Source of the DNA: a virus
DNA length: 46,668 nucleotides
Strand: one strand, 5' to 3'
Virus record (IMG/VR): IMGVR_UViG_3300032284_000155
Coordinates: 1 to 46,668 of that record
The notes under the pieces were generated by a model that saw only the letters and a list, made by a program, of their open reading frames with translations, was not told the origin of the DNA and searched no databases. The position numbers were made by a program, and so were the translations under genes. Below, piece by piece: positions 19,828 through 39,988 of this stretch. How positions within the stretch are numbered: the first letter of the stretch is position 1; each line of letters opens with the position of its first letter.

Positions 19828-21339
19828 TTAATAGTATTCTTTCTTGCGGCGGAAATACTGAATGTCATCTTTCTCGTCCGACTCTAACCGAATAAACCCA
19901 CCCCGTCTATATCTAATAAGAGCTTGTGACATAGAGTCAACCATATCGTCATGCTCTCCAGATGGGAAGGAAGCAACCTCTTCAACCAGTTCTTCAGCCC
20001 AATTTGTATTGGGAACCCACACCATTCCGCTTGCAAACAAATCTGATACTGAATTCAACCTAGCTATCTTATCATTACCTTTGGTTGGAGTGAAATCTTG
20101 CACGGGTATGCCCATCGCACGCAGCTCGAAGATCAGTGGAGACCCTGCTGCCTTTGCTTCAACAATAATAGTATCTGGATCCCACTCTTTGAACTCTTTG
20201 AACGCTCGTTGCTTGAGTTCTGGAAACTCCATACGCTTCTTGAACGCATTTAGCAGAATAATATTGGCCTGATTAATGCCCCTATCGTCCGGCAAATAGA
20301 AAACTCCCCACGTTGTACACGCAGAATAGTCACTTCTTTCCGATTTTAAGAACGCCGTATCCCAAGACTGGATTACAAACTCGCAATATGGGGGGTTTTC
20401 CTCGTCCCAAATCTTCCACCACTCCCTTTTTATGATGGCAGACACGTCTGAAGTGGGCTGTTGCTGGTACTGAGCCATCCATTTTGCGTTTGGAAGCTCG
20501 GTTTTTAGGGCTTCAAGCTCTTTTAATGACCAAAACTGGGGCCAAAGTGGTCTTCCAGTAGGTAAAAGTGCAGGAAATTCGATCACTTTCCACTCTTCTC
20601 CCGACCTTTGGGCCGCCGCTTTGAGTACTTGCCCCGTCAAATCCTTTTTTGACCAGCGTGTCATCACGACCACAATCGCTCCGCCCGGTTGCAGACGCTG
20701 ACGTGGGCCTGACGTATACCACTCATACGTCTTATCATATATCTCAGGGTTTACTTCCGATAAGGCGGCTTCTTGTTCCGAATGCGGGTCATCAATGATG
20801 AGGAGGTCAGCGCCTTTACCCGTAACTGCACCACCCACACCAATCGCAAAATATTCTCCCGCAAAGTTAGTGGCCCACCTGCCAGCAGCTTTAGAGTCAG
20901 CTTGTAGAGCGACTTCCGGAAATATGTCTTTATAGCTGTCAGAATCAACTAAGTTCCTCACTTTCCTACCAAAGCCTACAGCCAACTCAGCCGTGTGGCT
21001 GGTTTGGATAATTTTTTTACCTGGGAATAACCCTAGGAACCAACTTGGCAGTAGATAAGACGCAAACTCAGACTTGGTATGACGGGGTGGCATATTAATA
21101 ATAAGCCGTTTGACTTTCCCTTCAGCCACTTCTTGGAATGCTTTTGCCATCCGCTCGTGGTGTCTACCATGAATAAACCCAGGCCACATGTATTTTACAT
21201 ATGCCATGAAATCTGTTTTAGCTATTTGCTTTGTCTTAGACCGTCTAGCTTCGGCGAGTAGTGCCCCGACCTTCTGTTGTGCAGCAGGTGGCAAATTGGG
21301 TAAAGCTCTTTCAGCTTTCAGCAGGAGGCTCTGATCCAT
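19828..21339 (-). CDS. terL: Terminase large subunit
   Basis: A 503-residue ATPase-nuclease that packages DNA. The ATPase has an atypical Walker A, INMPPRHTKSE (residues 81-91), Walker B LLIIDDPHSEQE (179-190) and a coupling-type VVVMTRWS (223-230). The RNase H-like nuclease has QSWDTAF (D327), IIVEAKAAGSP (E394) and GEHDDMVDSMSQAL (D464/D465). Length is normal. Its ATG, preceded by AGGA, overlaps the 3' end of the small subunit gene by 29 bases. The nuclease and ATPase residues all look intact. Confidence 0.95.
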   Translation of the reverse strand: MDQSLLLKAERALPNLPPAAQQKVGALLAEARRSKTKQIAKTDFMAYVKYMWPGFIHGRHHERMAKAFQEVAEGKVKRLIINMPPRHTKSEFASYLLPSWFLGLFPGKKIIQTSHTAELAVGFGRKVRNLVDSDSYKDIFPEVALQADSKAAGRWATNFAGEYFAIGVGGAVTGKGADLLIIDDPHSEQEAALSEVNPEIYDKTYEWYTSGPRQRLQPGGAIVVVMTRWSKKDLTGQVLKAAAQRSGEEWKVIEFPALLPTGRPLWPQFWSLKELEALKTELPNAKWMAQYQQQPTSDVSAIIKREWWKIWDEENPPYCEFVIQSWDTAFLKSERSDYSACTTWGVFYLPDDRGINQANIILLNAFKKRMEFPELKQRAFKEFKEWDPDTIIVEAKAAGSPLIFELRAMGIPVQDFTPTKGNDKIARLNSVSDLFASGMVWVPNTNWAEELVEEVASFPSGEHDDMVDSMSQALIRYRRGGFIRLESDEKDDIQYFRRKKEYY

Positions 21340-21904
21340 TCACCATTCCTAGTTCTTCATCCAAGTCCATATCCCCAATACTTTTTGGTTTGGGTTTTGC
21401 TTCCACGTCCGTTACACCCCCACCAAATAACTCTAAAGTTTTGCGCAGCTCGGACTCAATGTCCTCGACTGTGCGGTGGGTAACTGTGACATCAATACGC
21501 TCTGAGAACAACCCAACACTTGAGATCTTGCCTAAATTTTCTAGGGCTTTCATGCGTTGACGCGGATCTGGATCTACAGATTCAACTATTAACTTGTTTG
21601 TGATGTAGTTCCTCAAACGTCTAGAAACATCTAATACTTCGTGATCCCACTCACTCAATATTGCTTCTAGGTTAATTATTGTGCCCGGTGTCAGATCTTT
21701 TACTGGTGGCATTTTGCCTTCTGCCATGATCTGATGTGATGCAGCTTTGTCTTGTGGGGTGATGCTTACATCTGCGCCTTGCTTAATTAGCTCTTGCACC
21801 GTTTCAAAATAGGCGTGAGCTTTGACCCGGAAGTCTTCAATTTCTTCCGGTGTCGTGTCGAACGGGAATGGAATCCCAATTTCTGGTGTAGCTAAGATTG
21901 GCAT
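21311..21904 (-). CDS. terS: Terminase small subunit (putative)
   Basis: A 197-residue protein directly before terL. The core ILSEWDHEVLDVSRRLRNYITNKLIVESVDPDPRQRMKALENLGKISSVGLFSERIDVTVTHRTVEDIESELRKTLELFGG resembles small terminase subunits I remember from podoviruses (RLRNYI.NKL..E..D.DP..R++AL..LGKIS.VGLF.ER....V.H++.E+LE). It has an acidic C-terminal tail. The ATG has no clear SD and lies only 22 bases beyond the encoded CCA of the tRNA. Confidence 0.75.
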   Translation of the reverse strand: MPILATPEIGIPFPFDTTPEEIEDFRVKAHAYFETVQELIKQGADVSITPQDKAASHQIMAEGKMPPVKDLTPGTIINLEAILSEWDHEVLDVSRRLRNYITNKLIVESVDPDPRQRMKALENLGKISSVGLFSERIDVTVTHRTVEDIESELRKTLELFGGGVTDVEAKPKPKSIGDMDLDEELGMVNGSEPPAES

Positions 21905-21926: not shown

Positions 21927-22001
21927 TGGTTGCAGAGGCCGGGTTCGCACCGACGATCTTCTGGTTATGAGCCAGACGAGATACTGCTTCTCCACTCTGC
22001 T
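21927..22001 (-). tRNA. tRNA-Met(CAT), initiator-like
   Basis: A 75-nt cloverleaf on the minus strand. Acceptor AGCAGAG/CTCTGCA has six pairs with an A1-A72 mismatch; D stem GAGA/TCTC with a shortened loop AGCAGTA; anticodon stem TCTGG/CCAGA with loop CTCATAA (anticodon CAT); variable AGATC; T stem GTCGG/CCGGC with loop TGCGAAC; discriminator A and encoded CCA. Many positions match E. coli initiator tRNA, including the lack of a 1-72 pair. It differs by losing the GG of the D loop and U55, and one of the three anticodon-stem GC pairs. It lies first in the late operon, just before terS. Confidence 0.75.
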
Positions 22002-22210
22002 GGTTTATTGTACAGTGTTTTTATTTAAAAATATATACCCCCCGGGGGTGTTCGATTTAAATTAGTGACGGGGGGTGTTTGCTATGTAATACTTTAGTTA
22101 TATTAGTTTTTAAAAGTGTGGGATCGGTTGTGCAGATTAGTAAGTATGGGGCATGGTCGGAGTCCCAAAACCAATTTGGGGGGTGGGGGTACGCTGCGCC
22201 CGTCCGAATT

Positions 22211-22228
22211 TATGAACAGCTGTTCATA
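22211..22228. promoter_or_regulatory. Perfect 18-bp palindromic operator
   Basis: TATGAACAGCTGTTCATA, fully self-complementary. It lies where transcription from the predicted minus-strand promoter would begin, and shares AACA-NN-TGTTCATA with the dispersed 20-bp elements of the early arm. Confidence 0.7.
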
Positions 22229-22230
22229 TG

Positions 22231-22260
22231 TTTATAAAAAATACTTGTATAAAAGACCAA
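22231..22260 (-). promoter_or_regulatory. Possible late promoter (minus strand)
   Basis: TTGGTC (22255-22260), 18-bp spacer, TATAAA (22231-22236) on the minus strand. It overlaps the early promoter, so only one might be used at a time. It is the best sigma70-like site upstream of the tRNA-terS operon but is far from consensus. Confidence 0.4.
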
Positions 22261-22273
22261 TATCGGTTATACT
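22245..22273 (+). promoter_or_regulatory. Early promoter
   Basis: TTGTAT (22245-22250), 17-bp spacer, TATACT (22268-22273). It would start transcription near 22280, at the inverted repeat CATTAGA/TCTAATG, and drives the first early gene. Confidence 0.75.
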
Positions 22274-22305
22274 GAAAGCTCATTAGATCTTCTAATGAAA
22301 ACAAC

Positions 22306-22325
22306 TTATTAACAACTGTTCATAA
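22306..22325 (+). repeat. 20-bp dispersed palindromic element, copy 1
   Basis: TTATTAACAACTGTTCATAA in the leader of the first early gene, before its own SD (AAAAGGGAA). Confidence 0.75.
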
Positions 22326-22337
22326 AAGGGAAACATC

Positions 22338-22874
22338 ATGTCTACACAAATTGACACACAAACTGGTTATTCATTGGTAGTTAAATCGGTACAAGACGCT
22401 ATAAAATCGGATGTAACATCCGAACACAAATGGGTATCATGCTCTAAGAATGTCGTTTCATTCTTCGGTACTGAAACCGCATTGGAAGGGGTTAAAGCCC
22501 AATTTATTGCGGACGCTATTTTGCCCGCCATTGATAAGCGCCATGCGCAAGCGCTTGCAAGCGAGTTACCACGCAAGGGTTCAAAAGAGTATAACGAGTT
22601 AACTGACTCTGAAAAGACTTTATGGGAAGATAAAAACCAAGCGAAAAAAGACGCTCGCTCTACTTGCAACACTTACTTCAATCGGGTTTTGTCTTATGCT
22701 TTCCCAAAAGTAAAAGAGGAAAACGCAACAACTGCAACCAATGAAACAAAAGAATTGGAAATGCTTAACGCATTAATCAAGAGACTTGAAAAAGCCGAGT
22801 CTCGCACTTACTCGATCACGGCAGTTATGGCATCATTACTTCAAGCACGAATCGACATGGCAAAACAAGTATAA
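22338..22874 (+). CDS. First early protein, unknown, own transcription unit
   Basis: A 178-residue protein, not recognised. It appears alpha-helical, with a basic middle (SELPRKGSKEYNELTDSEKTLWEDKNQAKKDARSTCNTYFNRVLSYAFPKVKEE) and a C-terminal coiled coil (ELEMLNALIKRLEKAESRTYSITAVMASLLQARIDMAK). It has its own promoter, a palindromic element in the leader and a strong terminator 18 bases after the stop. That arrangement suits an abundant immediate-early product, perhaps a host-takeover or regulatory factor; no DNA-binding motif is obvious. Confidence 0.8.
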   Translation: MSTQIDTQTGYSLVVKSVQDAIKSDVTSEHKWVSCSKNVVSFFGTETALEGVKAQFIADAILPAIDKRHAQALASELPRKGSKEYNELTDSEKTLWEDKNQAKKDARSTCNTYFNRVLSYAFPKVKEENATTATNETKELEMLNALIKRLEKAESRTYSITAVMASLLQARIDMAKQV

Positions 22875-22891
22875 ACGAAACTGCTCAAACT

Positions 22892-22915
22892 AAGCCCACT
22901 TCGGTGGGCTTTTTC
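22892..22915 (+). terminator. Rho-independent terminator of the first early gene
   Basis: AGCCCAC-TTCG-GTGGGCT hairpin (22893-22910) followed by TTTTC, 18 bases after the stop. Confidence 0.9.
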
Positions 22916-22982
22916 TTCGTCTTAAATTTTGTGTCTCAATCATTTCGTGATAGTTACGCATAGTTGATGATGATGCACAAAC

Positions 22983-23002
22983 TTATTAACAGGTGTTAAT
23001 AA
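22983..23002 (+). repeat. 20-bp dispersed palindromic element, copy 2 (perfect)
   Basis: TTATTAACAGGTGTTAATAA, perfect apart from the central two bases, at the left edge of the GTTCC repeat cluster. An ATG follows directly but opens only 17 codons. Confidence 0.75.
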
Positions 23003-23302
23003 ATGTTCCGCTTGTTCCGCAATGTTCCAGTTGACTGGAACACGGCAAGTCATTGATTTTAAAGGAGAAATTGACCTTTTTTTATAAATGTTCCAATGTT
23101 CCATATATATATATATCTTACCTGAGTCTGTAACTACTTTACAAAGTTAAGTGGTGGAGATTCTCAGATCTCAAGTGGCTTTGGTAAGGTTGTTATATCA
23201 CTGGAACATTGGAACAGGGCGACATTGAAGCGTGTAACATTATGATTTCAAATGACTTTTTGCCATTTTGCGCACTTAGAACATTGGAACAAATCTTGGA
23301 AC
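22983..23302. other. Repeat-rich stretch, candidate replication origin
   Basis: Between 22875 and 23337 I see no supported gene. Ten GTTCC/GGAAC pentamers occur at 23005, 23014, 23024, 23037, 23090, 23098, 23203, 23211, 23286 and 23298. They include the 18-bp dyad GTTCCAGT-TG-ACTGGAAC (23024-23041), a 15-bp inverted pair TGTTCCAATGTTCCA (23089-23103) and TGGAACATTGGAACA (23202-23216), and a third GAACATTGGAACA (23279-23291). An alternating TATATA tract (23103-23116) sits between. Iterons plus an AT tract recall replication origins; a protein operator array is the alternative. Confidence 0.45.
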
Positions 23303-23337
23303 ACGAATCACTTAACAAAGTAAAAAGGAGAGTAATC

Positions 23338-23544
23338 ATGTCAAAAGCATTTTGTAGGTGTTGTGGCGACGACATTGCCCAAAAGCGTTGGGCACTTGGA
23401 TTCAAGTTCTGTATGCCATGCGGTGAGGAGTTAGCCAAAAAGCGTAAGCACACCATCGTGCCTATGCACAAGTCGAATTACATAGTTGTAACCGATCTCA
23501 ATTTATTAACAGGTGTTAACACAAAAGGAGGGTTAGTCAAATGA
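23338..23544 (+). CDS. Zinc-ribbon mini-protein
   Basis: A 68-residue protein: MSKAFCRCCGDDIAQKRWALGFKFCMPCGEELAKKRKH. Two CxxC pairs (about residues 6-9 and 25-28) form a probable zinc ribbon. The start is chosen at the ATG preceded by AAAGGAGAG; the frame is open further upstream but lies in the repeat region. Near its end the dispersed palindrome (23503-23522) is read as LLTGVN. It overlaps the next gene as ATGA. Function unknown. Confidence 0.75.
   Translation: MSKAFCRCCGDDIAQKRWALGFKFCMPCGEELAKKRKHTIVPMHKSNYIVVTDLNLLTGVNTKGGLVK
23503..23522 (+). repeat. 20-bp dispersed palindromic element, copy 3
   Basis: TTATTAACAGGTGTTAACAC, inside the zinc-ribbon gene, in frame as Leu-Leu-Thr-Gly-Val-Asn. 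A half copy (TATTAACAGGTG) occurs about 70 bases further on, inside the next gene, near 23572-23583. Confidence 0.65.
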
Positions 23545-23741
23545 ATAAACTTCAACTGGTTATATTAACAGGTGCTTGTTGCATCCTAGCTTACATGGGC
23601 TTGCATGGCGACGGATACATTCACAAAGCCATGTGCTTTGCGTGTGGGCTTATTTGGTCTTTCATCTTGCATGAGCTGGTGGATGAATTCAACACACTAA
23701 AAGAAGTTACAGAGAGTAAAGATTCAATCAACATAATTTAA
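23541..23741 (+). CDS. Small two-helix membrane protein
   Basis: A 66-residue protein with two hydrophobic segments (LQLVILTGACCILAYMGL, residues 4-21; AMCFACGLIWSFILHELV, 30-47) separated by HGDGYIHK, and a polar C-terminus. It probably lies in the host inner membrane. The start overlaps the previous stop and follows AAAGGAGGG. No family recognised. Confidence 0.7.
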   Translation: MNKLQLVILTGACCILAYMGLHGDGYIHKAMCFACGLIWSFILHELVDEFNTLKEVTESKDSINII

Positions 23742-23750
23742 GGGTAAACC

Positions 23751-23843
23751 ATGAAAACACAACACATTGATGCATCTTTGGTGCTAGTGGCTCAGATAGT
23801 ATTTGTTATGGTCATATCAGTACTGATGGTACTTGTATGGTGA
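23751..23843 (+). CDS. 30-residue membrane mini-protein
   Basis: MKTQHIDASLVLVAQIVFVM, then VISVLMVLVW: a short polar N-terminus and one long hydrophobic helix. AAGGGTAAACC precedes the ATG, and the TGA overlaps the start of the next gene, as in neighbouring coupled genes. Very short, so the call depends on this context. Confidence 0.5.
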   Translation: MKTQHIDASLVLVAQIVFVMVISVLMVLVW

Positions 23844-24037
23844 TTGACCGCAAAACTGGTAAGCCAGTTGAGTTAGGAGATACCTTAATCCGTCGGGACT
23901 ATAAAGGCTTCAAGCATCGTTATGAAATACTTGACTTTATACCTAGAGGGGTTTGGGTGCGTAAGTTAGAGCGAGACAGGTATGTGTACCTGAGTATGTC
24001 GCTTTCCAGTTTGCAACTGGATGAAGTTATGGTATAG
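23837..24037 (+). CDS. Unknown small early protein
   Basis: A 66-residue protein: MVIDRKTGKPVELGDTLIRRDYKGFKHRYEILDFIPRGVWVRKLERDRYVYLSM. The G..+..GD.+ and Y.+++ pattern suggests a small beta-barrel (SH3-like) fold; this is an impression only. There is no clear SD, so it is probably coupled to the overlapping membrane mini-gene. GTG at 23840 is an alternative start. Confidence 0.6.
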   Translation: MVIDRKTGKPVELGDTLIRRDYKGFKHRYEILDFIPRGVWVRKLERDRYVYLSMSLSSLQLDEVMV

Positions 24038-24041
24038 CAAC

Positions 24042-24061
24042 TTATTAACAGGAGTTCATAA
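24042..24061 (+). repeat. 20-bp dispersed palindromic element, copy 4 (contains SD)
   Basis: TTATTAACAGGAGTTCATAA. Its central AGGAG is the ribosome binding site of the gene starting at 24063; as RNA the arms pair 7 of 8, leaving AGGA in the loop. Confidence 0.75.
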
Positions 24062-24062
24062 A

Positions 24063-24311
24063 ATGGAGATTAAAAAAGTATCAACGGAAAGCGTACGAAG
24101 AATGCCCGATTGGATAGAAGTTCAAGTGCCAGTAACTAAAGCAGAAACCTTATCGGTTGTTGGTAACCCATGCAAAACTTACGATGAAGGATGCTATGTT
24201 TGCGATGCTTGGAAATCTTACAACGACCACGGTTTTATTATGGTTCTATTGGATCGTGCAGAAGTAATTAAAAAAGAAGGTGAACCCGTAATATTTGAGG
24301 AGTATGAATAA
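24063..24311 (+). CDS. Unknown early protein
   Basis: An 82-residue protein: MEIKKVSTESVRRMPDWIEVQVPVTKAETLSVVGNPCKTYDEGCYVCDAWKSYNDHGFIMVLLDRAEVIKKEG. Beta-rich, with three cysteines (C-x6-C-x2-C). Start fixed by the palindrome-embedded AGGAG; the frame extends upstream but without an SD. Overlaps the next gene by one base. No family recognised. Confidence 0.7.
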   Translation: MEIKKVSTESVRRMPDWIEVQVPVTKAETLSVVGNPCKTYDEGCYVCDAWKSYNDHGFIMVLLDRAEVIKKEGEPVIFEEYE

Positions 24312-24547
24312 TGAATTGGAATCACAGAATTGTAGATATGAGCCACGAAAATGCGGGCGACCCTTGGTTTGAGATCAGGGAGGTTGTTTACGAAGACGAT
24401 GGAGAAATCTCAGGGCATACGCACATATGCACAGGAGACGAGACTGTCGAGGGACTTATCTTTTGTCTTGAGCGTATGCTAGCAGATGTTAAGGGTAAGC
24501 GAGTCATCAACGGCGTAACACTAGAGGAGATTACAAATGGAAAATGA
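24311..24547 (+). CDS. Unknown early protein
   Basis: A 78-residue acidic protein: NHRIVDMSHENAGDPWFEIREVVYEDDGEISGHTHICTGDETVEGLIFCLERMLADVKGKRVI. WF.IREV.Y...G...G......G.ET.E.L...L..M..D resembles a small phage family I have seen without a function. The start overlaps the previous stop (TAATG) and its end overlaps the next gene by 11 bases. Confidence 0.7.
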   Translation: MNWNHRIVDMSHENAGDPWFEIREVVYEDDGEISGHTHICTGDETVEGLIFCLERMLADVKGKRVINGVTLEEITNGK

Positions 24548-24752
24548 AATCGAAACAGAATTAGACAGTTTAATTGATAAGCTAGGCGACTTACTCGACA
24601 ACAAGAGTATGTATGCGGCACACATTGCCGTAGCTAAATTCTTTGTGCAAATATCCTACGAGTCAGGCAATGGCAAGGACACATTCTTATCATTGTGCTC
24701 TGACTTATGGGATTCTATGGAGAAGTCATACCAAGCGGAGGTAACACACTAA
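24537..24752 (+). CDS. Unknown small helical early protein
   Basis: A 71-residue acidic helical protein: MENEIETELDSLIDKLGDLLDNKSMYAAHIAVAKFFVQISYESGNGKDTFLSLCSDLWDSMEKSYQAEVTH. GAGGAG lies 7-12 bases upstream. Stop and next start overlap (TAATG). No family recognised. Confidence 0.7.
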   Translation: MENEIETELDSLIDKLGDLLDNKSMYAAHIAVAKFFVQISYESGNGKDTFLSLCSDLWDSMEKSYQAEVTH

Positions 24753-24937
24753 TGGAGATTCAGTTCACAATGACACAACAGGAGATCGACGCATTGAATG
24801 ATGTGGTTGATTATGTTTTGCTTGATGCAAGGGACAATCAGTTTTATCATGCACAGGCGAGAATACTACACAAATGGATAATGAAAGGAGGGATTCAGAA
24901 TGATACCGAGCGAACAACTGAGCGAGAGAGATCTTAA
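24752..24937 (+). CDS. Unknown small early protein
   Basis: A 61-residue protein: MEIQFTMTQQEIDALNDVVDYVLLDARDNQFYHAQARILHKWIMKGGIQND, ending in a charged tail. The start is the ATG overlapping the previous stop (GGAGG 10 bases upstream). The helical Q.EI.AL.DVV.Y.L.DA....+..A..IL.K+ pattern is typical of short phage proteins with no known role. Confidence 0.65.
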   Translation: MEIQFTMTQQEIDALNDVVDYVLLDARDNQFYHAQARILHKWIMKGGIQNDTERTTERERS

Positions 24938-25013
24938 AGACATTCGCAACAAACTAATCGTAACCATCGTACTGATGGTTTTTTGCTATTTATTAACAGG
25001 AGTTCATAAATGA
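24900..25013 (+). CDS. 37-residue membrane mini-protein with strong SD
   Basis: MIPSEQLSERDLKDIRNKLI, then VTIVLMVFCYLLTGVHK: a charged N-terminal helix and a hydrophobic C-terminal segment. AAAGGAGGG six bases before the ATG is one of the best ribosome sites in the early arm, which argues for real expression. It overlaps the previous gene in another frame. Its last codons are the dispersed palindrome (LLTGVHK), and its stop overlaps the next ATG. Confidence 0.65.
   Translation: MIPSEQLSERDLKDIRNKLIVTIVLMVFCYLLTGVHK
24990..25009 (+). repeat. 20-bp dispersed palindromic element, copy 5 (contains SD)
   Basis: TTATTAACAGGAGTTCATAA, identical to copy 4. It forms the C-terminal codons of the 37-residue gene and the AGGAG of the gene at 25010. 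Confidence 0.8.
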
Positions 25014-25918
25014 TATACAAGGGAAACATACCAACAAGCTATGCATACTACAAGGAGTTGTACGAAAGCATCAAGCCCATACGAGGACGCCCTGATTGTA
25101 GACCAGTCAATAATCGCAGAGAGACATGGAAAACTATCATAGAGAAAGATCTTGGCAATGGCAAGAAATCGTATGCCATGAAATTCCATAACACCGAGTG
25201 CGTTGAGTATTTCGCCAATGGCGATATTACTTTGCGTGTTGGCAGTTGGGAGACACCACTAACCGCTGAGTTCATTCATATGCATAGTCCGTTTCGTTGT
25301 TGGAAACAGTACAACAAAGTTTGGGTTAAGTTTGTGGATAGCTCGGAGAATCACAAATATGGTGTTTCATACCCCATCCATCGTGAGTTGAAACTAACAT
25401 ATGAAGGCGAGTGGCAAGTCGGTGCATCAAGCGGACATATGTTCAAACCCGTAGGTAATGTACCTATCATAAAACGAATTGTAGATCGTGCGAAGGCAAA
25501 AGCAGCACGAGAGCCTGTAAAACCATTTTTAGAATTTGCTAAATCTTTTCTCACCATGTCGGATGGTTGGTTGATGCATGAAACTAAAAAGCAAGTGATC
25601 GGGTTCAATGAAGAAAATGGGTTCGATTGGGTGCGTCTAAGCGACATGGAGAAATACGAAATGATGAAGGGTGATCCAGAAGGGTATTTAAAGCTAATGA
25701 TAAACATGTTGCGGAATGAAACACCATCAAGGCGATATATTGCTGAGACTAAAAAAGTTAAGCATGGGTCATTTGAGTATGACGAACATTACTACGATGA
25801 GCAACATTCGTACAAAAGGCTTCATGCACTTGCCTACAGAGCGGTGGAGAGTTCGGTGGATATTTATACTGTAAAGGAGGTGGCACTAAATAGCAAAGCA
25901 ATGACAAATATCGTTTAA
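25010..25918 (+). CDS. Unknown early protein, 302 residues
   Basis: Not recognised by motif. It starts MIYKGNIPTSYAYYKELYESIKPIRGRPDCRPVNNRR, with KKSYAMKFHNTECVEYFANGDITLRVGSWETPLTAEFIHMHSP (residues 53-95), a beta-rich part that could bind or mark a short peptide or nucleic acid. A helical middle (IKRIVDRAKAKAAREPVKPFLEFAKSFLTM) follows, and a C-terminal half with many Tyr, Glu and Lys. From memory, proteins with Y.MKFH.T.V......G.I.L...GW.T..T occur in other aquatic phages. It precedes the AAA/VWA cassette but is separated from it by a promoter. Confidence 0.7.
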   Translation: MIYKGNIPTSYAYYKELYESIKPIRGRPDCRPVNNRRETWKTIIEKDLGNGKKSYAMKFHNTECVEYFANGDITLRVGSWETPLTAEFIHMHSPFRCWKQYNKVWVKFVDSSENHKYGVSYPIHRELKLTYEGEWQVGASSGHMFKPVGNVPIIKRIVDRAKAKAAREPVKPFLEFAKSFLTMSDGWLMHETKKQVIGFNEENGFDWVRLSDMEKYEMMKGDPEGYLKLMINMLRNETPSRRYIAETKKVKHGSFEYDEHYYDEQHSYKRLHALAYRAVESSVDIYTVKEVALNSKAMTNIV

Positions 25919-25950
25919 GTGTGAGTGCGAAAAAATCAAGTTCAAAAAGC

Positions 25951-25979
25951 TTGACAAGGGTCTACAGTTCTGTTATAAT
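25951..25979 (+). promoter_or_regulatory. Perfect consensus sigma70 promoter for the AAA/VWA cassette
   Basis: TTGACA (25951-25956), 17-bp spacer, TATAAT (25974-25979). TATAACAGTTGTAGA (25983-25997) at the predicted start resembles the palindromic elements in reverse, suggesting an operator over +1. Confidence 0.9.
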
Positions 25980-26016
25980 ATGTATAACAGTTGTAGAAAA
26001 AGTTAGTTTTGTGTAA

Positions 26017-26036
26017 GTATTAACAACTGTTCATAA
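26017..26036 (+). repeat. 20-bp dispersed palindromic element, copy 6
   Basis: GTATTAACAACTGTTCATAA (first base differs from consensus) in the leader between the consensus promoter and the AAA ATPase gene, before its own SD AAAAGGAAAA. Confidence 0.7.
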
Positions 26037-26049
26037 AAAGGAAAATGAA

Positions 26050-27138
26050 ATGAGTGCAATTAATTTTGGTAGTTCAGTATCGTTGAAAGAGTTCGCTCTT
26101 GGTATCGGTACAGTCGGTGAGAATGTAACTGTTATCGGACAGGGTGAACCTGGAATTGGTAAGAGTGCCATGCTGAAAGTTCTTTCTAAGCAATATCCCA
26201 ATTACGAGATAGCGTACATTGACTGTACCTTACTTGATCTTGGTGACTTTGCTTTGCCCTACACCGAGATGAATAATGACATGAAGGTAACTAAGTTTGC
26301 CCCCAATGCTAGGTTCAAGATGCACACAGGCAAACCAGTTATTGTTATGCTTGACGAGATTGGCAAGGCAATGAAGGCAGTTAAGAATGTGCTATTGACT
26401 CTCATGCTAGAGCATAGGATTGGTGATGACTATTTACCAGTTGGTAAGAATGGTGAGAAATCAATTGTGTTTGGTACAACTAATCAATTGACAGATGGGG
26501 TAGGCGATATGCTCGAAGCCCATGCGAGAAATCGTGTGTGCTTTGTGACTGTGCGTAAGCCTGATGCAGACGAGTGGATTGAGTGGGCAATTGCGAACGA
26601 CATTGCGCCCGAAGTTATTGCGTGGGTGAAGCAGTTCCCTCATGCCTTGGCTAGTTATATGGATGCAAGTCAGCGTGATAACCCCTATATCTTTAATCCA
26701 CAGCGTGCTGGTATGGGTGCGGTGGTTACACCAAGAAGTTTAGAGAAGGCTAGTTACATTGCGAAGCGAAGGGAAGCGTTGGGTGATGCGCTTACTATTA
26801 GTATGCTAACAGGTACTATCGGTGAGAGTGCATCAAGAGATATGCAAGCGTTCTTTACTGTGGTGGACAAGTTGCCAACATGGGATGCGATCATGGCTAA
26901 TCCGTTGAGTGCGAAGATGCCAACCGATGCAGTCGCTAAATGCATCTTGGTGTTTAGTGCAATCACTAGGGTTGAGAAGGAGACACTAGGTAAGTGGATG
27001 GCATATGTCCAACGCATGGACAAAGAATGGCAAGCGTTGTTTGCTACGAGTGTGATGAAGTCACCAGTTAAACAAGCCTTTTGTGTAATGCACAAAGACT
27101 TCAAAGATTGGGCATTGGCTAATCAATGGTTGTTTTAA
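26050..27138 (+). CDS. MoxR/CobS-type AAA+ ATPase
   Basis: A 362-residue AAA+ protein: Walker A GEPGIGKS (residues 32-39), Walker B VIVMLDEIGK (97-106), sensor 1 FGTTNQ (141-146) and an arginine-finger-like region EAHARNRV (156-163). PRSLEKASYIAKRR around residue 230 would supply sensor 2. The order matches MoxR-family ATPases, which usually work with a VWA protein to remodel or load partner complexes; the next gene is a VWA protein. Its own consensus promoter and operator-like element indicate controlled, strong early expression. Confidence 0.85.
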   Translation: MSAINFGSSVSLKEFALGIGTVGENVTVIGQGEPGIGKSAMLKVLSKQYPNYEIAYIDCTLLDLGDFALPYTEMNNDMKVTKFAPNARFKMHTGKPVIVMLDEIGKAMKAVKNVLLTLMLEHRIGDDYLPVGKNGEKSIVFGTTNQLTDGVGDMLEAHARNRVCFVTVRKPDADEWIEWAIANDIAPEVIAWVKQFPHALASYMDASQRDNPYIFNPQRAGMGAVVTPRSLEKASYIAKRREALGDALTISMLTGTIGESASRDMQAFFTVVDKLPTWDAIMANPLSAKMPTDAVAKCILVFSAITRVEKETLGKWMAYVQRMDKEWQALFATSVMKSPVKQAFCVMHKDFKDWALANQWLF

Positions 27139-27139
27139 T

Positions 27140-27159
27140 TTATTAACAGGAGTTCATAA
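27140..27159 (+). repeat. 20-bp dispersed palindromic element, copy 7 (contains SD)
   Basis: TTATTAACAGGAGTTCATAA exactly between the AAA stop and the VWA start; AGGAG is the VWA ribosome site. Confidence 0.8.
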
Positions 27160-27160
27160 A

Positions 27161-28366
27161 ATGAGTAATTTAACTGCGGAACAGAGAATACAAAAGGCAC
27201 ATGTTGCCTTGATGAAAGACCCTAAGTATTGCTTGTACTCAGGTATCTTTATGGTCGGTAAGACTGAGGTCGATGAGAAGATGCCGACTGCGGGTACGGA
27301 TGGTCGCAACACATACTATGGTCGTGCGTTCGTGGACAAGATAGACGACAGACAACTGAGAGCGGTTATCTTGCATGAGAATCTACATAAGGCTTTCAGA
27401 CATATAACCACATGGAAACATCTTTATGATGAGCATCACCAGTTGGCGAACATGGCTTGTGACTTTGTGATTAACTTGATGATACATGACTCAGATCCTA
27501 GCGGTACATTCGTGAAGTTACCCGATAGTGCGTTGCTTGATGAGAAGTATCGTGGATGGGACTCAGGTTCAGTATTCAAAGACTTGATGCAACAAGCACA
27601 AGGTGGGTCGGTTCATGTAAAGAGTGTAGGTAATCCACAAGGCAGAGACATACCAGTAAGAGAAGGGTCGGACTTTGGAGGGTTCGATGAGCATGACTGG
27701 GAAGGTGGTCAGGAGATGGGTAACGAGGAGAAGGAACAACTTGCAAGAGACATTGACCAAGCATTGAGACAGGGTGCGATACTTGCGGGCAAGATGAAAG
27801 GCAATGTACCAAGAGAGGTAACCGATGCGCTTGAAGCGAAGATTGATTGGAAAGAAGCTATGCGTGAGTTCTTTACATCGTTCTGTATGGACAAGGACGA
27901 GAGTACATGGCGCAAACCTAATCGTAGGTGGATAGATCAAGATGTGTATATGCCATCCTTGATCGGTGAATCAGTCGGTCGCATTGTGGTGGGTATTGAT
28001 ATGTCGGGTTCGATTGGTACTGAGGAGGTCGGGCAGTTCTTAGGTGAGGTGCGTAAGATCTGCGAGACAGTTAAGCCCGAAGGTATTGATGTTCTCTACT
28101 GGGATACTGAGGTATGTTCGCATGAGAAGTACGAGCAAGATCAATTGGATAACTTGTTGTCCAGTACTAAGCCCAAGGGTGGGGGCGGTACAGATGTTGT
28201 ATGTGTGCCTGAGTACATGAGAGATCATAAGATCAAGGCAGAGTGTGCAGTCATCTTAACCGATGGCTATTTAGGTGGAGACTGGGGTAAGTGGGATTGT
28301 CCAACATTGTGGGGTATCACTAGTGATATTACTTCACCAATTGGCAAGACTGTTCGCATCCAGTAA
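27161..28366 (+). CDS. VWA-domain protein with N-terminal metallopeptidase-like domain
   Basis: A 401-residue protein with two regions. The N-terminal part carries HENLHKAFRH (residues 72-81), an HExxH zinc motif with a third histidine, and ACDFVINLMI further on, as in the putative metallopeptidase domain fused to VWA (DUF2201-like). The C-terminal VWA domain has an intact MIDAS: DMSGS (280-284), GGGGTD (340-345) and ILTDG (365-369). Partnered with the preceding MoxR ATPase, it recalls CbbQ/CbbO, RavA/ViaA and CobS/CobT pairs, where the VWA protein links the ATPase to its target. The phage target is unknown. Confidence 0.85.
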   Translation: MSNLTAEQRIQKAHVALMKDPKYCLYSGIFMVGKTEVDEKMPTAGTDGRNTYYGRAFVDKIDDRQLRAVILHENLHKAFRHITTWKHLYDEHHQLANMACDFVINLMIHDSDPSGTFVKLPDSALLDEKYRGWDSGSVFKDLMQQAQGGSVHVKSVGNPQGRDIPVREGSDFGGFDEHDWEGGQEMGNEEKEQLARDIDQALRQGAILAGKMKGNVPREVTDALEAKIDWKEAMREFFTSFCMDKDESTWRKPNRRWIDQDVYMPSLIGESVGRIVVGIDMSGSIGTEEVGQFLGEVRKICETVKPEGIDVLYWDTEVCSHEKYEQDQLDNLLSSTKPKGGGGTDVVCVPEYMRDHKIKAECAVILTDGYLGGDWGKWDCPTLWGITSDITSPIGKTVRIQ

Positions 28367-28367
28367 T

Positions 28368-28387
28368 TTATTAACAGGTGTTCATAA
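28368..28387 (+). repeat. 20-bp dispersed palindromic element, copy 8
   Basis: TTATTAACAGGTGTTCATAA, starting 1 base after the VWA stop codon; a separate SD (AAAAAGGAGAG) follows for the next gene. Confidence 0.8.
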
Positions 28388-28401
28388 AAAGGAGAGTGCA
28401 T

Positions 28402-29235
28402 ATGATTCAGAACAGTGCAATGTTAGTTGACCTCAACATCAGCGTGTGGACAGGTCGCAAGATGGATAAGAAAGTATCCGAAGAGATTGATGCGAGCAAG
28501 GGTACGAAGTCGAGAGCTGGAAACTATCATAAAAAGTTATTGGCAGGTACTGATCGACTCGATGATTTGCAAAAGCTTGTTACCAAAATTCGGATTTGGC
28601 ATTACGAGCAGACCTTGCCTTGGTCGGATGGTGGGTCTCGCTTGTTACCAATGAAAAACTTCTTTGACTATAAAGCTACGCTAGGTGATTACGAGCGCCA
28701 GTTGAACAATGAGGTACAGATGTTTCTACAAGAGTACGACACGCTAGTAACCGCCGCAGCCTTTCAGTTGGGTGATTTGTTTGATGCAGATGAATATCCT
28801 ACTGCGGAGAGCTTGCAGGGTAAGTTTAAGTTTAAGTATGTATTCTTACCAGTACCCGATGTAGGTGACTTTAGGATTGAGGTCAATGAAGTACACAAGC
28901 AAGAGCTACAAGCACAGTACGAAGAGTTCTTCAATAAGAAGTTATCGGATGCTATGCAAGATGCATGGGACAGACTGCATGATTGTCTCAAGCGTATGAG
29001 CGAGAAACTTGCGGGCGAAGATAAGCAGATCTTCAGAGACTCATTGGTCAACAATGCATCAGACTTATGCGAGTTGTTAACTAAGCTGAATGTAACAGGC
29101 GACGCTAAGTTGGAAGTTGCTAGAAAGAAGTTGGAGAGTGCGCTTGTAGGTGTGACGGCTAACGAGCTACGCAAAGACGACGATCTTAGACTGGATGTGA
29201 AAGCGAAGGTCGATGAGATTCTAGGGATGTTTTGA
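28402..29235 (+). CDS. Coiled-coil partner of the AAA/VWA pair (DUF3150-like)
   Basis: A 277-residue helical protein: MIQNSAMLVDLNISVWTGRKMDKKVSEEIDASKGTKSRAGNYHKKLLAG, then WSDGGSRLLPMKNFFDYKATLGDYERQLNNEVQMFLQEYDTLV, FKYVFLPVPD, and helical repeats to the end. The LV.L.IS.W.GRK.DK.V..E opening, a WSD.G.RLLP segment and linkage to MoxR and VWA genes match what I remember of DUF3150 proteins in phages and integrative elements. Start at the ATG after AAAAAGGAGAGTGCAT; a longer frame has no SD. Its TGA overlaps the next ATG. Confidence 0.7.
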   Translation: MIQNSAMLVDLNISVWTGRKMDKKVSEEIDASKGTKSRAGNYHKKLLAGTDRLDDLQKLVTKIRIWHYEQTLPWSDGGSRLLPMKNFFDYKATLGDYERQLNNEVQMFLQEYDTLVTAAAFQLGDLFDADEYPTAESLQGKFKFKYVFLPVPDVGDFRIEVNEVHKQELQAQYEEFFNKKLSDAMQDAWDRLHDCLKRMSEKLAGEDKQIFRDSLVNNASDLCELLTKLNVTGDAKLEVARKKLESALVGVTANELRKDDDLRLDVKAKVDEILGMF

Positions 29236-29504
29236 TGAGTGACATCAAACAAGGCGACTGGGTAATTACAAAAGGTAAGCGAATTGCTTATGTAGCATTT
29301 GAAGATCCTTATGGGTTCGAAAAAAACAATCCTCATGTGTATTTGTATTTTTGGGGTGATGAGTTTCATTGCCGTAGTTACAAAACCAGTTCGTTAACCA
29401 AGGTAGACCCATCAGTTGCCAAAATATTAACAGATGTTCATAAAGAGCGAATTAAAGCTCGCACTTCTTCATTTTTAAAAACAGGGAGATATTTAGATGA
29501 TTAA
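29235..29504 (+). CDS. Unknown small early protein
   Basis: An 89-residue protein: MSDIKQGDWVITKGKRIAYVAFEDPYGFEKNNPHVYLYFWGDEFHCRSYKTSSLTKVDP. The start QGDWVI..GKR.AYV is typical of small SH3-like barrels, but no family is named. The last third contains the palindromic element read in frame (ILTDVHKERIK). Start overlaps the previous stop; the end overlaps the next gene by 8 bases. Confidence 0.65.
   Translation: MSDIKQGDWVITKGKRIAYVAFEDPYGFEKNNPHVYLYFWGDEFHCRSYKTSSLTKVDPSVAKILTDVHKERIKARTSSFLKTGRYLDD
29424..29443 (+). repeat. 20-bp dispersed palindromic element, copy 9
   Basis: AATATTAACAGATGTTCATA-A type copy (consensus differs at the first base and the centre), inside a coding region in the same frame as the other coding copies. 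Confidence 0.6.
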
Positions 29505-39754: not shown

Positions 39755-39988
39755 ATGCCCAACGGTTATTCATTACTTACCGTACAAGAAGTTAGAGAAG
39801 CCAACCAATCTTTATTGGGTGTACAACTAGGCAAGATTTGTATAGAACGGAACATTCCAGTTACAGATGTTGCTGATTTTTTCAAGGTAAGCCGTGTGAC
39901 TGTCTACTCTTGGTTTAGAGGCAAAACAGTCGTATCGGGTAAACACTCTGAAAAAATGCAAAAGCTAATAGCAAAATTATTAGCTTGA
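39755..39988 (+). CDS. Cro-like helix-turn-helix protein
   Basis: A 77-residue protein: LGVQLGKICIERNIPVTDVADFFKVSRVTVYSWFRGKTVVSGKHSEKMQKLIAKLLA. VTDVADFFKVSRVTVYSWFRG is a good HTH_XRE motif with recognition helix SRVTVYSWF. It is a candidate repressor for one of the palindromic sites in this genome. The 3' end forms a 9-bp inverted repeat (39962-39986). Confidence 0.8.
   Translation: MPNGYSLLTVQEVREANQSLLGVQLGKICIERNIPVTDVADFFKVSRVTVYSWFRGKTVVSGKHSEKMQKLIAKLLA
39962..39986. repeat. 9-bp inverted repeat at the end of the HTH gene
   Basis: AAGCTAATA-(7 nt)-TATTAGCTT, spanning the last codons of the HTH gene. No T-tract follows, so an operator or mRNA hairpin is as likely as a weak terminator. 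A second stem GGATG/CATCC (40022-40039) lies in the 88-nt gap before the primase gene. Confidence 0.5.

Follow-up and report, generated by a model that had tools for sequence, protein, structure and literature searches.

Lineage-specific arrays of palindromic operator-like sites in the early arm of an uncultured phage group, and a first early gene that varies with them

Which regulator, acting at which sites, governs the region between two divergent gene arms in an uncultured virus of bacteria? The window, by which we mean the whole 46,668-base virus record analyzed here, encodes a terminase large subunit closest to those of phages 023Pt_psg01, DSL-LC04, HTVC027P, and HTVC023P (51–57% identity); around TerS, the named phages DSL-LC04 and 023Pt_psg01 are arranged differently from the window. 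Late genes run leftward from 21904 and early genes rightward from 22338, where "early" and "late" are labels taken from gene content, not from transcripts. A minus-strand tRNA-Met gene (anticodon CAT, 21927–22001) separates the early control region from the first late gene, and the gene at 21311–21904, which precedes the terminase large subunit, is presumed to be TerS by position only. A preliminary description of this control region reported overlapping promoters on opposite strands, accompanied by palindromic operators, and proposed that one regulator selects between the arms as in lambda-type switches. The elements it named are all present: a perfect 18-bp palindrome (TATGAACAGCTGTTCATA, 22211–22228) that contains the expected start of the minus-strand promoter, a plus-strand promoter-like pair (TTGTAT-17-TATACT, 22245–22273), a minus-strand pair (TTGGTC-18-TATAAA, 22260–22231), an inverted repeat (CATTAGA/TCTAATG, 22281–22287/22291–22297), and a downstream operator-like copy (TTATTAACAACTGTTCATAA, 22306–22325). 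The palindromes are real and exceed chance, but they form part of an array of 11 copies, of which that description saw too few, rather than of a two-promoter switch. Likewise, the action of one regulator through these palindromes is strongly suggested by the array and by lineage-specific site sequences that track a phage gene, whereas a lambda-type choice between early and late arms is unsupported.

Searching the window with TGAACANNTGTTCA at up to two mismatches gives 15 matches against 3.55 expected, and the 20-bp consensus TTATTAACARNTGTTMATAA, also at up to two mismatches, gives 11 against 0 in 100 shuffles. All 11 copies lie within the early arm (22210–31225) and 0 in the late arm, and 7/11 are located at the ribosome-binding site of an early gene. 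The palindromic operator O1 (TTATGAACAGCTGTTCATAT, 22210–22229) stands upstream of the early −35 box, and many window-type relatives, though not all, have an O1-like copy similarly placed. Three copies include an AGGAG Shine-Dalgarno sequence and end 0–1 nt ahead of the ATG: copy 5 (24042–24061, serving ORF 24063–24311), copy 6 (24990–25009, ORF 25010–25918), and copy 8 (27140–27159, the DUF2201 or VWA-like gene at 27161–28366). Four others occupy leader positions directly 5′ of the Shine-Dalgarno sequence. These are copy 2, or O2, in the leader of gene 1 (22306–22325); copy 4 (23503–23522), in the leader of ORF 23541–23741 and also within the 3′ end of the overlapping ORF 23209–23544; copy 7 (26017–26036), in the leader of an AAA ATPase gene, here called MoxR-like (26050–27138); and copy 9 (28368–28387), in the leader of ORF 28402–29235. 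Copy 3 (22983–23002) is intergenic and adjoins a cluster of TGTTCC repeats, copy 10 (29424–29443) lies within ORF 29232–29504, and copy 11 (31206–31225) is coding (LLTGVNK) near the start of ORF 31182–31484, with a site at the same place in L018.

Relatives carry comparable arrays with different sequences. Loci were gathered by a gene 1 search (12) and by a search with the TerS-position protein (76), and a de novo search for repeated 18-mers was run on 25 early arms, 3 of which were too short, leaving 22 scored. Among these 22, the array is of the window type (W, core TTAACANNTGTTAA) in 13, of type A (CTAAAYCGTTTAG) in two, and of types B (TTTAACAGTGTTAAA), C (TAAAAACGTTTTTA), and E (ATTAAACNNGTTTAAT) in one each, while no clear array was found by this search in L075, L082, L086, and L074. 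The 18 de novo arrays have 4–13 copies, compared with 2–4 reached by shuffled controls (two each); the weakest, in the 2.8-kb arm of L067, has 4 copies vs 3 in its control, and the others have 6–13. In whole records, the core TTAACANNTGTTAA at up to one mismatch has 7–14 matches each in 10/12, and 0 in G007 and G008. The sites are two-fold symmetric palindromes in all five lineage types, and the five operator types have 0 occurrences in the late-arm sequence covered at 18/18 loci. A separate operator type D, derived from O1 of L086 for L086 and L082, was dropped because its loose pattern also matched late arms. In some relatives an extra operator lies inside the ATPase gene, with contigs oriented for a rightward early arm, at L024 9621, L041 8120, L045 5594, L046 14451, L048 13165, and L051 6665, where it is apparently accommodated in the reading frame.

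Placement at gene starts is frequent among window-type sites. Among 172 window-type sites from 18 contigs including the window, a set in which near relatives are present and which are thus not independent, 110 have a Shine-Dalgarno sequence and a start codon with an ORF in the next 40 nt, compared with 537 of 3,440 random positions, and 49 finish 0–1 nt before a start codon. High information is confined to the palindrome and the start-side bases that come after it. We found no conserved −35/−10 element beside the 172 sites, which suggests that the sites are not in general parts of promoters.

An indication of what reads the array comes from contigs L080, L081, and L083, all fragments, which share 85–98% identity over the late arm and mostly 91–98% over their common early genes. 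Despite this similarity, neither the first early gene nor the prevailing operator type is the same in the three. L080 and L081 are 97.8% identical over L080 1–5106, and the match stops two bases short of O1 (5108). Past O1 gene 1 is different, followed by six later segments at 94–97% identity, three of which start at a site or immediately beyond one (7021, 7535, and 10225). The late arms of L083 and L080 match at 85%, most of their early segments at about 94–97%, and one early segment at 77%, and the early segments of L083 match those of L081 at 91–98%. The site preceding the orthologous ATPase gene is of type A in L080 and L085, type B in L081, and type C in L083, and the first codons of that gene are nearly the same in all four contigs. 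At the protein level, L080 and L081 have identical TerS-position proteins (100%) and gene 1 proteins with 25% identity; for L081 and L087, both with B sites (a single site in the 1.4-kb arm of L087), the corresponding values are 69% and 66%. Other small ORFs besides gene 1 also differ among L080, L081, and L083.

Across loci, the commonest operator type matches the gene 1 group in 15/15 assigned cases (W 8, A 3, B 2, C 1, and E 1), with groups that were defined after the data were seen and with single C and E loci that cannot disagree; the count covers 15 of 18 loci, leaving out L082 and L086 (gene 1 ungrouped, one A-type site each) and L075 (no array). Gene 1 identity itself overlaps between types A and W, since the A-type member L142 is 38% identical to the W-type window and 40–41% to other A members. 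Exchange also appears to be partial. L080 is a mosaic with seven type A sites and four type B matches, of which two are clear start-associated sites (7227 and 9275) and one is a coding stretch common to L081 and L083; L083 carries a seemingly damaged A-type site, and no O1 is visible in the control region of L081. Sites of the odd type may be traces of incomplete conversion or imported cassettes. Scans for new backbones returned only L083's own contig for C-type gene 1, and only L081's own contig and the already known L087 for B-type gene 1. Because near-identical relatives appear to swap gene 1 and most sites together, we suggest that gene 1 encodes the regulator that reads the array. A host-encoded regulator was judged unlikely, as contigs with the same backbone differ in site type.

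Gene 1 (E1, plus strand, 22338–22874) encodes 178 aa and is the first sizeable early gene among the relatives examined. Its alignment has 37 members, and by profile gene 1 of L078 and of L081 seem to be members of this family (E = 4.9e-13 and 2.1e-8 in a four-sequence database, and 3.4e-5 for L081 vs all ORFs), unlike that of L083 or L075. Structure prediction gives an all-helical protein (mean pLDDT 87, pTM 0.63). No Pfam or PHROG family was accepted for gene 1: three Pfam families each match 1 of the 37 members weakly (best E = 0.0014), and PHROG matches such as phrog_1448, whose function is unknown, were obtained for the L075 protein, which is not a member of the gene 1 family. Foldseek found no structure in PDB or BFVD that matched the model at E ≤ 0.001, VIA-align gave Z of at most 6.1 over 47 residues, which has little meaning for helical proteins, and a PDB sequence search gave one match at E = 0.59. 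By tblastn there is no match in named phages, and two short peptide patterns revealed no gene 1 relative in genome_contigs (84,980 species). Since neither a family nor a fold match is available, the putative DNA-binding role of gene 1 is drawn from the comparison of relatives.

Ahead of gene 1, the plus-strand promoter at 22245–22273 gains credibility from where it lies. Both window promoters agree with the consensus at fewer than 9 of 12 positions. The early one, with a promoter score of 8.9, is the top plus-strand match in the region, and the best matches in 200 shuffles have a median of 7.6 and a 90% level of 9.9, so that the score alone is within chance. Its position is kept in L014, L015, and L016, and in 32/40 contigs, a set that counts the window, includes near relatives, and is thus not independent, the −35 box of the best plus-strand match falls between −136 and −60 from gene 1, and is part of O1 in some; in the other 8/40 the best match is elsewhere. 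In L080, L082, L085, L086, and L078 the early promoter scores 12.6–13.2 (99% of shuffles are below 12.3). Conserved position thus supports a predicted early promoter here. At the start of the early transcript, the inverted repeat would form a 5′ hairpin (plus strand, 22280–22298). A hairpin of altered sequence is predicted there in L015 and L016 too, and several relatives have other stem-loops; folding at z < −1 is seen in 14/35 leaders only.

We consider it probable that gene 1 encodes a Cro-like early repressor that controls its own synthesis and acts on DNA, both at O1 and O2 and at stoperator-like sites farther downstream, a proposal built from sequence comparison. The locus would then be the control region of the early operon, with the early genes forming one operator regulon. 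Gene 1 would be transcribed first, from the host-type promoter at 22245–22273, and its product, a small helical DNA-binding protein and probably a dimer, would recognize the two-fold symmetric TTATTAACANNTGTTAATAA; it is the symmetry of the sites that suggests a dimer. Bound at O1 beside the promoter and at O2 in its own leader, the protein would damp its own synthesis, since two sites flanking the first gene suggest autoregulation. Binding at the nine further sites, at the starts of later early genes or inside them, may block passage of RNA polymerase or access to start regions; by analogy with stoperators, their location away from promoters suggests that elongation would be blocked or the start region occluded. 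As the protein accumulates, the early arm would be shut down, in the manner of Cro combined with stoperators, and lineages would alter specificity by replacing gene 1 along with most sites. The findings favor a role in controlling the early arm, perhaps in early shut-off or in immunity. More tentatively, these phages, which have no recognized integrase, might possess superinfection immunity, with a fast-changing new family of DNA-binding proteins, made from the first early gene, silencing the early arm of relatives with matching sites, and near-identical phages escaping by swapping the regulator and most sites; we regard this extension as somewhat doubtful.

Two HTH proteins from other parts of the window, of 77 aa (39755–39988) and 70 aa (30973–31185), are the main rivals of gene 1 as reader of the sites; both have weak matches to HTH families. 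Their distribution is suggestive: the 77-aa protein occurs in 10/12 records and the 70-aa protein in 11/12. G007, the source of locus L075, lacks both and is the record in which no early-arm array was found; G011, whose record has 21.6 kb, lacks the 77-aa protein. However, window-type phages (SRVTVYSWFRG in the window) and G008 (SRMSVYAWFRG) have almost identical recognition-helix regions in the 77-aa protein despite the different operator of G008, which speaks against this protein, and neither HTH gene adjoins the swapped segment. We consider it unlikely that either protein reads the array in place of gene 1. A reading in which the sites work in mRNA, where a protein or hairpin would control translation at the Shine-Dalgarno sequence in RegA-like or SAS-like fashion, draws on the many sites on or beside Shine-Dalgarno sequences, including those that abut the start codon. 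Recognition of DNA rather than RNA is nevertheless favored because O1 precedes the early promoter, some copies fall in coding sequence within genes, three of the window's start-site copies fold no better than shuffles (z = 0.36, −0.89, and 0.48), and type C palindromes leave no natural loop, and we hold translational control to be quite improbable.

Two further readings were considered. The sites could activate: at a weak early promoter, the gene 1 protein bound at O1 would recruit RNA polymerase, and the remaining copies would mark middle promoters. O1 is suitably placed in the window, upstream of the −35 box with its centre at about −60 from the predicted start, but the lack of any conserved promoter element beside the 172 sites, the many downstream sites at ribosome-binding sites, and early promoters already near consensus in the L080 group make activation very unlikely. 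In the lambda-type bidirectional switch, one regulator would decide between the early promoter and the overlapping late promoter. The palindrome does span the expected start of the minus-strand promoter, and L041, L040, and L067 have TTGAC(A/G)-16/17-TATTAA with the −10 box inside O1 (scores 9.5, 7.3, and 7.8). The minus-strand promoter of the window, however, scores 4.9, whereas the best matches in shuffles have a median of 7.6. It is outside the two best minus-strand matches in the window, as also in the closest relatives (L014–L016), and this weakness and lack of conservation leave the switch unsupported. Moreover, 10/11 sites are away from any late-arm start, and on the minus side, unlike in the lambda switch, there is no recognized repressor gene but the tRNA-Met (21927–22001) and then the gene (21311–21904) before that for the terminase large subunit. 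Such a switch is accordingly among the most improbable of the explanations considered.

The repressor proposed for gene 1 has partial counterparts in well-studied phages. Lambda Cro, a repressor of early promoters, is encoded by the first early gene, as proposed here, and the C1 repressor of phage P1, a phage without chromosomal integration, uses dispersed operators, although the P1 sites are asymmetric and those described here are palindromic. Closer in layout are the stoperators of cluster A mycobacteriophages (L5, Bxb1, and TipsytheTRex), which, in the portions of PMC9283540 and PMC6550527 consulted, are described as many repressor sites spread over the genome, most of them outside promoters, with a site consensus that varies between lineages along with the repressor; these phages are temperate and have 20–30 sites of 13 bp, asymmetric and bound by an HTH monomer. 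The window resembles them in its 11 predicted sites, nine of them beyond O1 and O2, as do the 172 sites in having no conserved promoter. Unlike stoperators, the sites are palindromic rather than 13-bp and asymmetric, are restricted to the early arm, and number 11 in the window and about 6–13 in relatives with an early arm of at least 5 kb. Also unlike in cluster A, no integrase was found in 12 records (PF00589 in 0/12, the window among them, any of which may be a fragment), as the preliminary description had noted for the window itself, and gene 1 contains no recognized HTH. The cluster A repressor has an N-terminal HTH and a stoperator domain; gene 1 gave no sequence or fold match by which such domains might be recognized.

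Repeats at translation starts are known from cluster K phages, whose SAS/ESAS elements contain AGGAG and include inverted repeats with a consensus that varies by subcluster, for which the authors favor DNA-binding proteins (PMC3203893, in the sections consulted); start-associated repeats are also treated in part of PMC12699233. The cluster K 13-bp SAS GGGATAGGAGCCC has 0 matches in the window at up to two mismatches. The sites described here differ from SAS/ESAS in sequence, in that the palindrome itself can span the Shine-Dalgarno sequence, and in that a candidate regulator is indicated by its exchange with the sites. In the T1-like lytic phages T1, TLS, and Stevie, intergenic repeats oriented with transcription have been likened to stoperators, with an unknown role in lytic phages; those of Stevie have an asymmetric 22-bp consensus, and the excerpts of PMC11447400 and PMC4319613 name no regulator for T1-like repeats. 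Repeats of other phages are likened to stoperators and left unexplained in the relevant part of PMC4916379. In the portions seen of the open-license literature on the motif, the mechanism, and the phage group, nothing was recognized as the present array, and the text of PMC9599517 mentions no operator or promoter in the part consulted. Symmetry, placement at Shine-Dalgarno sequences, restriction to the early arm, and a candidate regulator exchanged with the sites set this array apart from the stoperator and SAS families. By analogy, it may be a variant of stoperator/ESAS-like systems that acts as they do.

If the repressor proposal for gene 1 is right, an uncultured phage group governs its early genes by dispersed palindromic operators, through a family of readers without a recognized DNA-binding fold, and regulator and operators have been exchanged naturally between phages whose late arms are as much as 98% identical. 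The role of stoperator-like and start-associated repeats in phages without recognized lysogeny genes would then become directly testable, with a few small proteins and 20-bp sites.

Three other elements of the region deserve description. The hexamer TGTTCC or its complement, GGAACA, occurs ten times in about 300 bp of the window (23004–23303), round an AT-rich stretch; 8/10 relatives examined have 8–12 copies in one 400-bp stretch, and L080 and L083 have two. The cluster may consist of replication-origin iterons or of sites for a second regulator. Upstream of O1, the non-coding stretch at 22130–22189 has the form GTGCAGATTA...GGAGTCCCAAA...TTTGGGGGGTGGGGG; a strict pattern for it matches only the window and L018 among 13 contigs, similar stretches occur in the control regions of many relatives, and it is possibly a packaging or replication signal. 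Finally, on the minus strand at 22037–22049, a ACCCCCGGGGGGT hairpin ahead of a run of T residues resembles a terminator, and similar sequences are present in a number of relatives.
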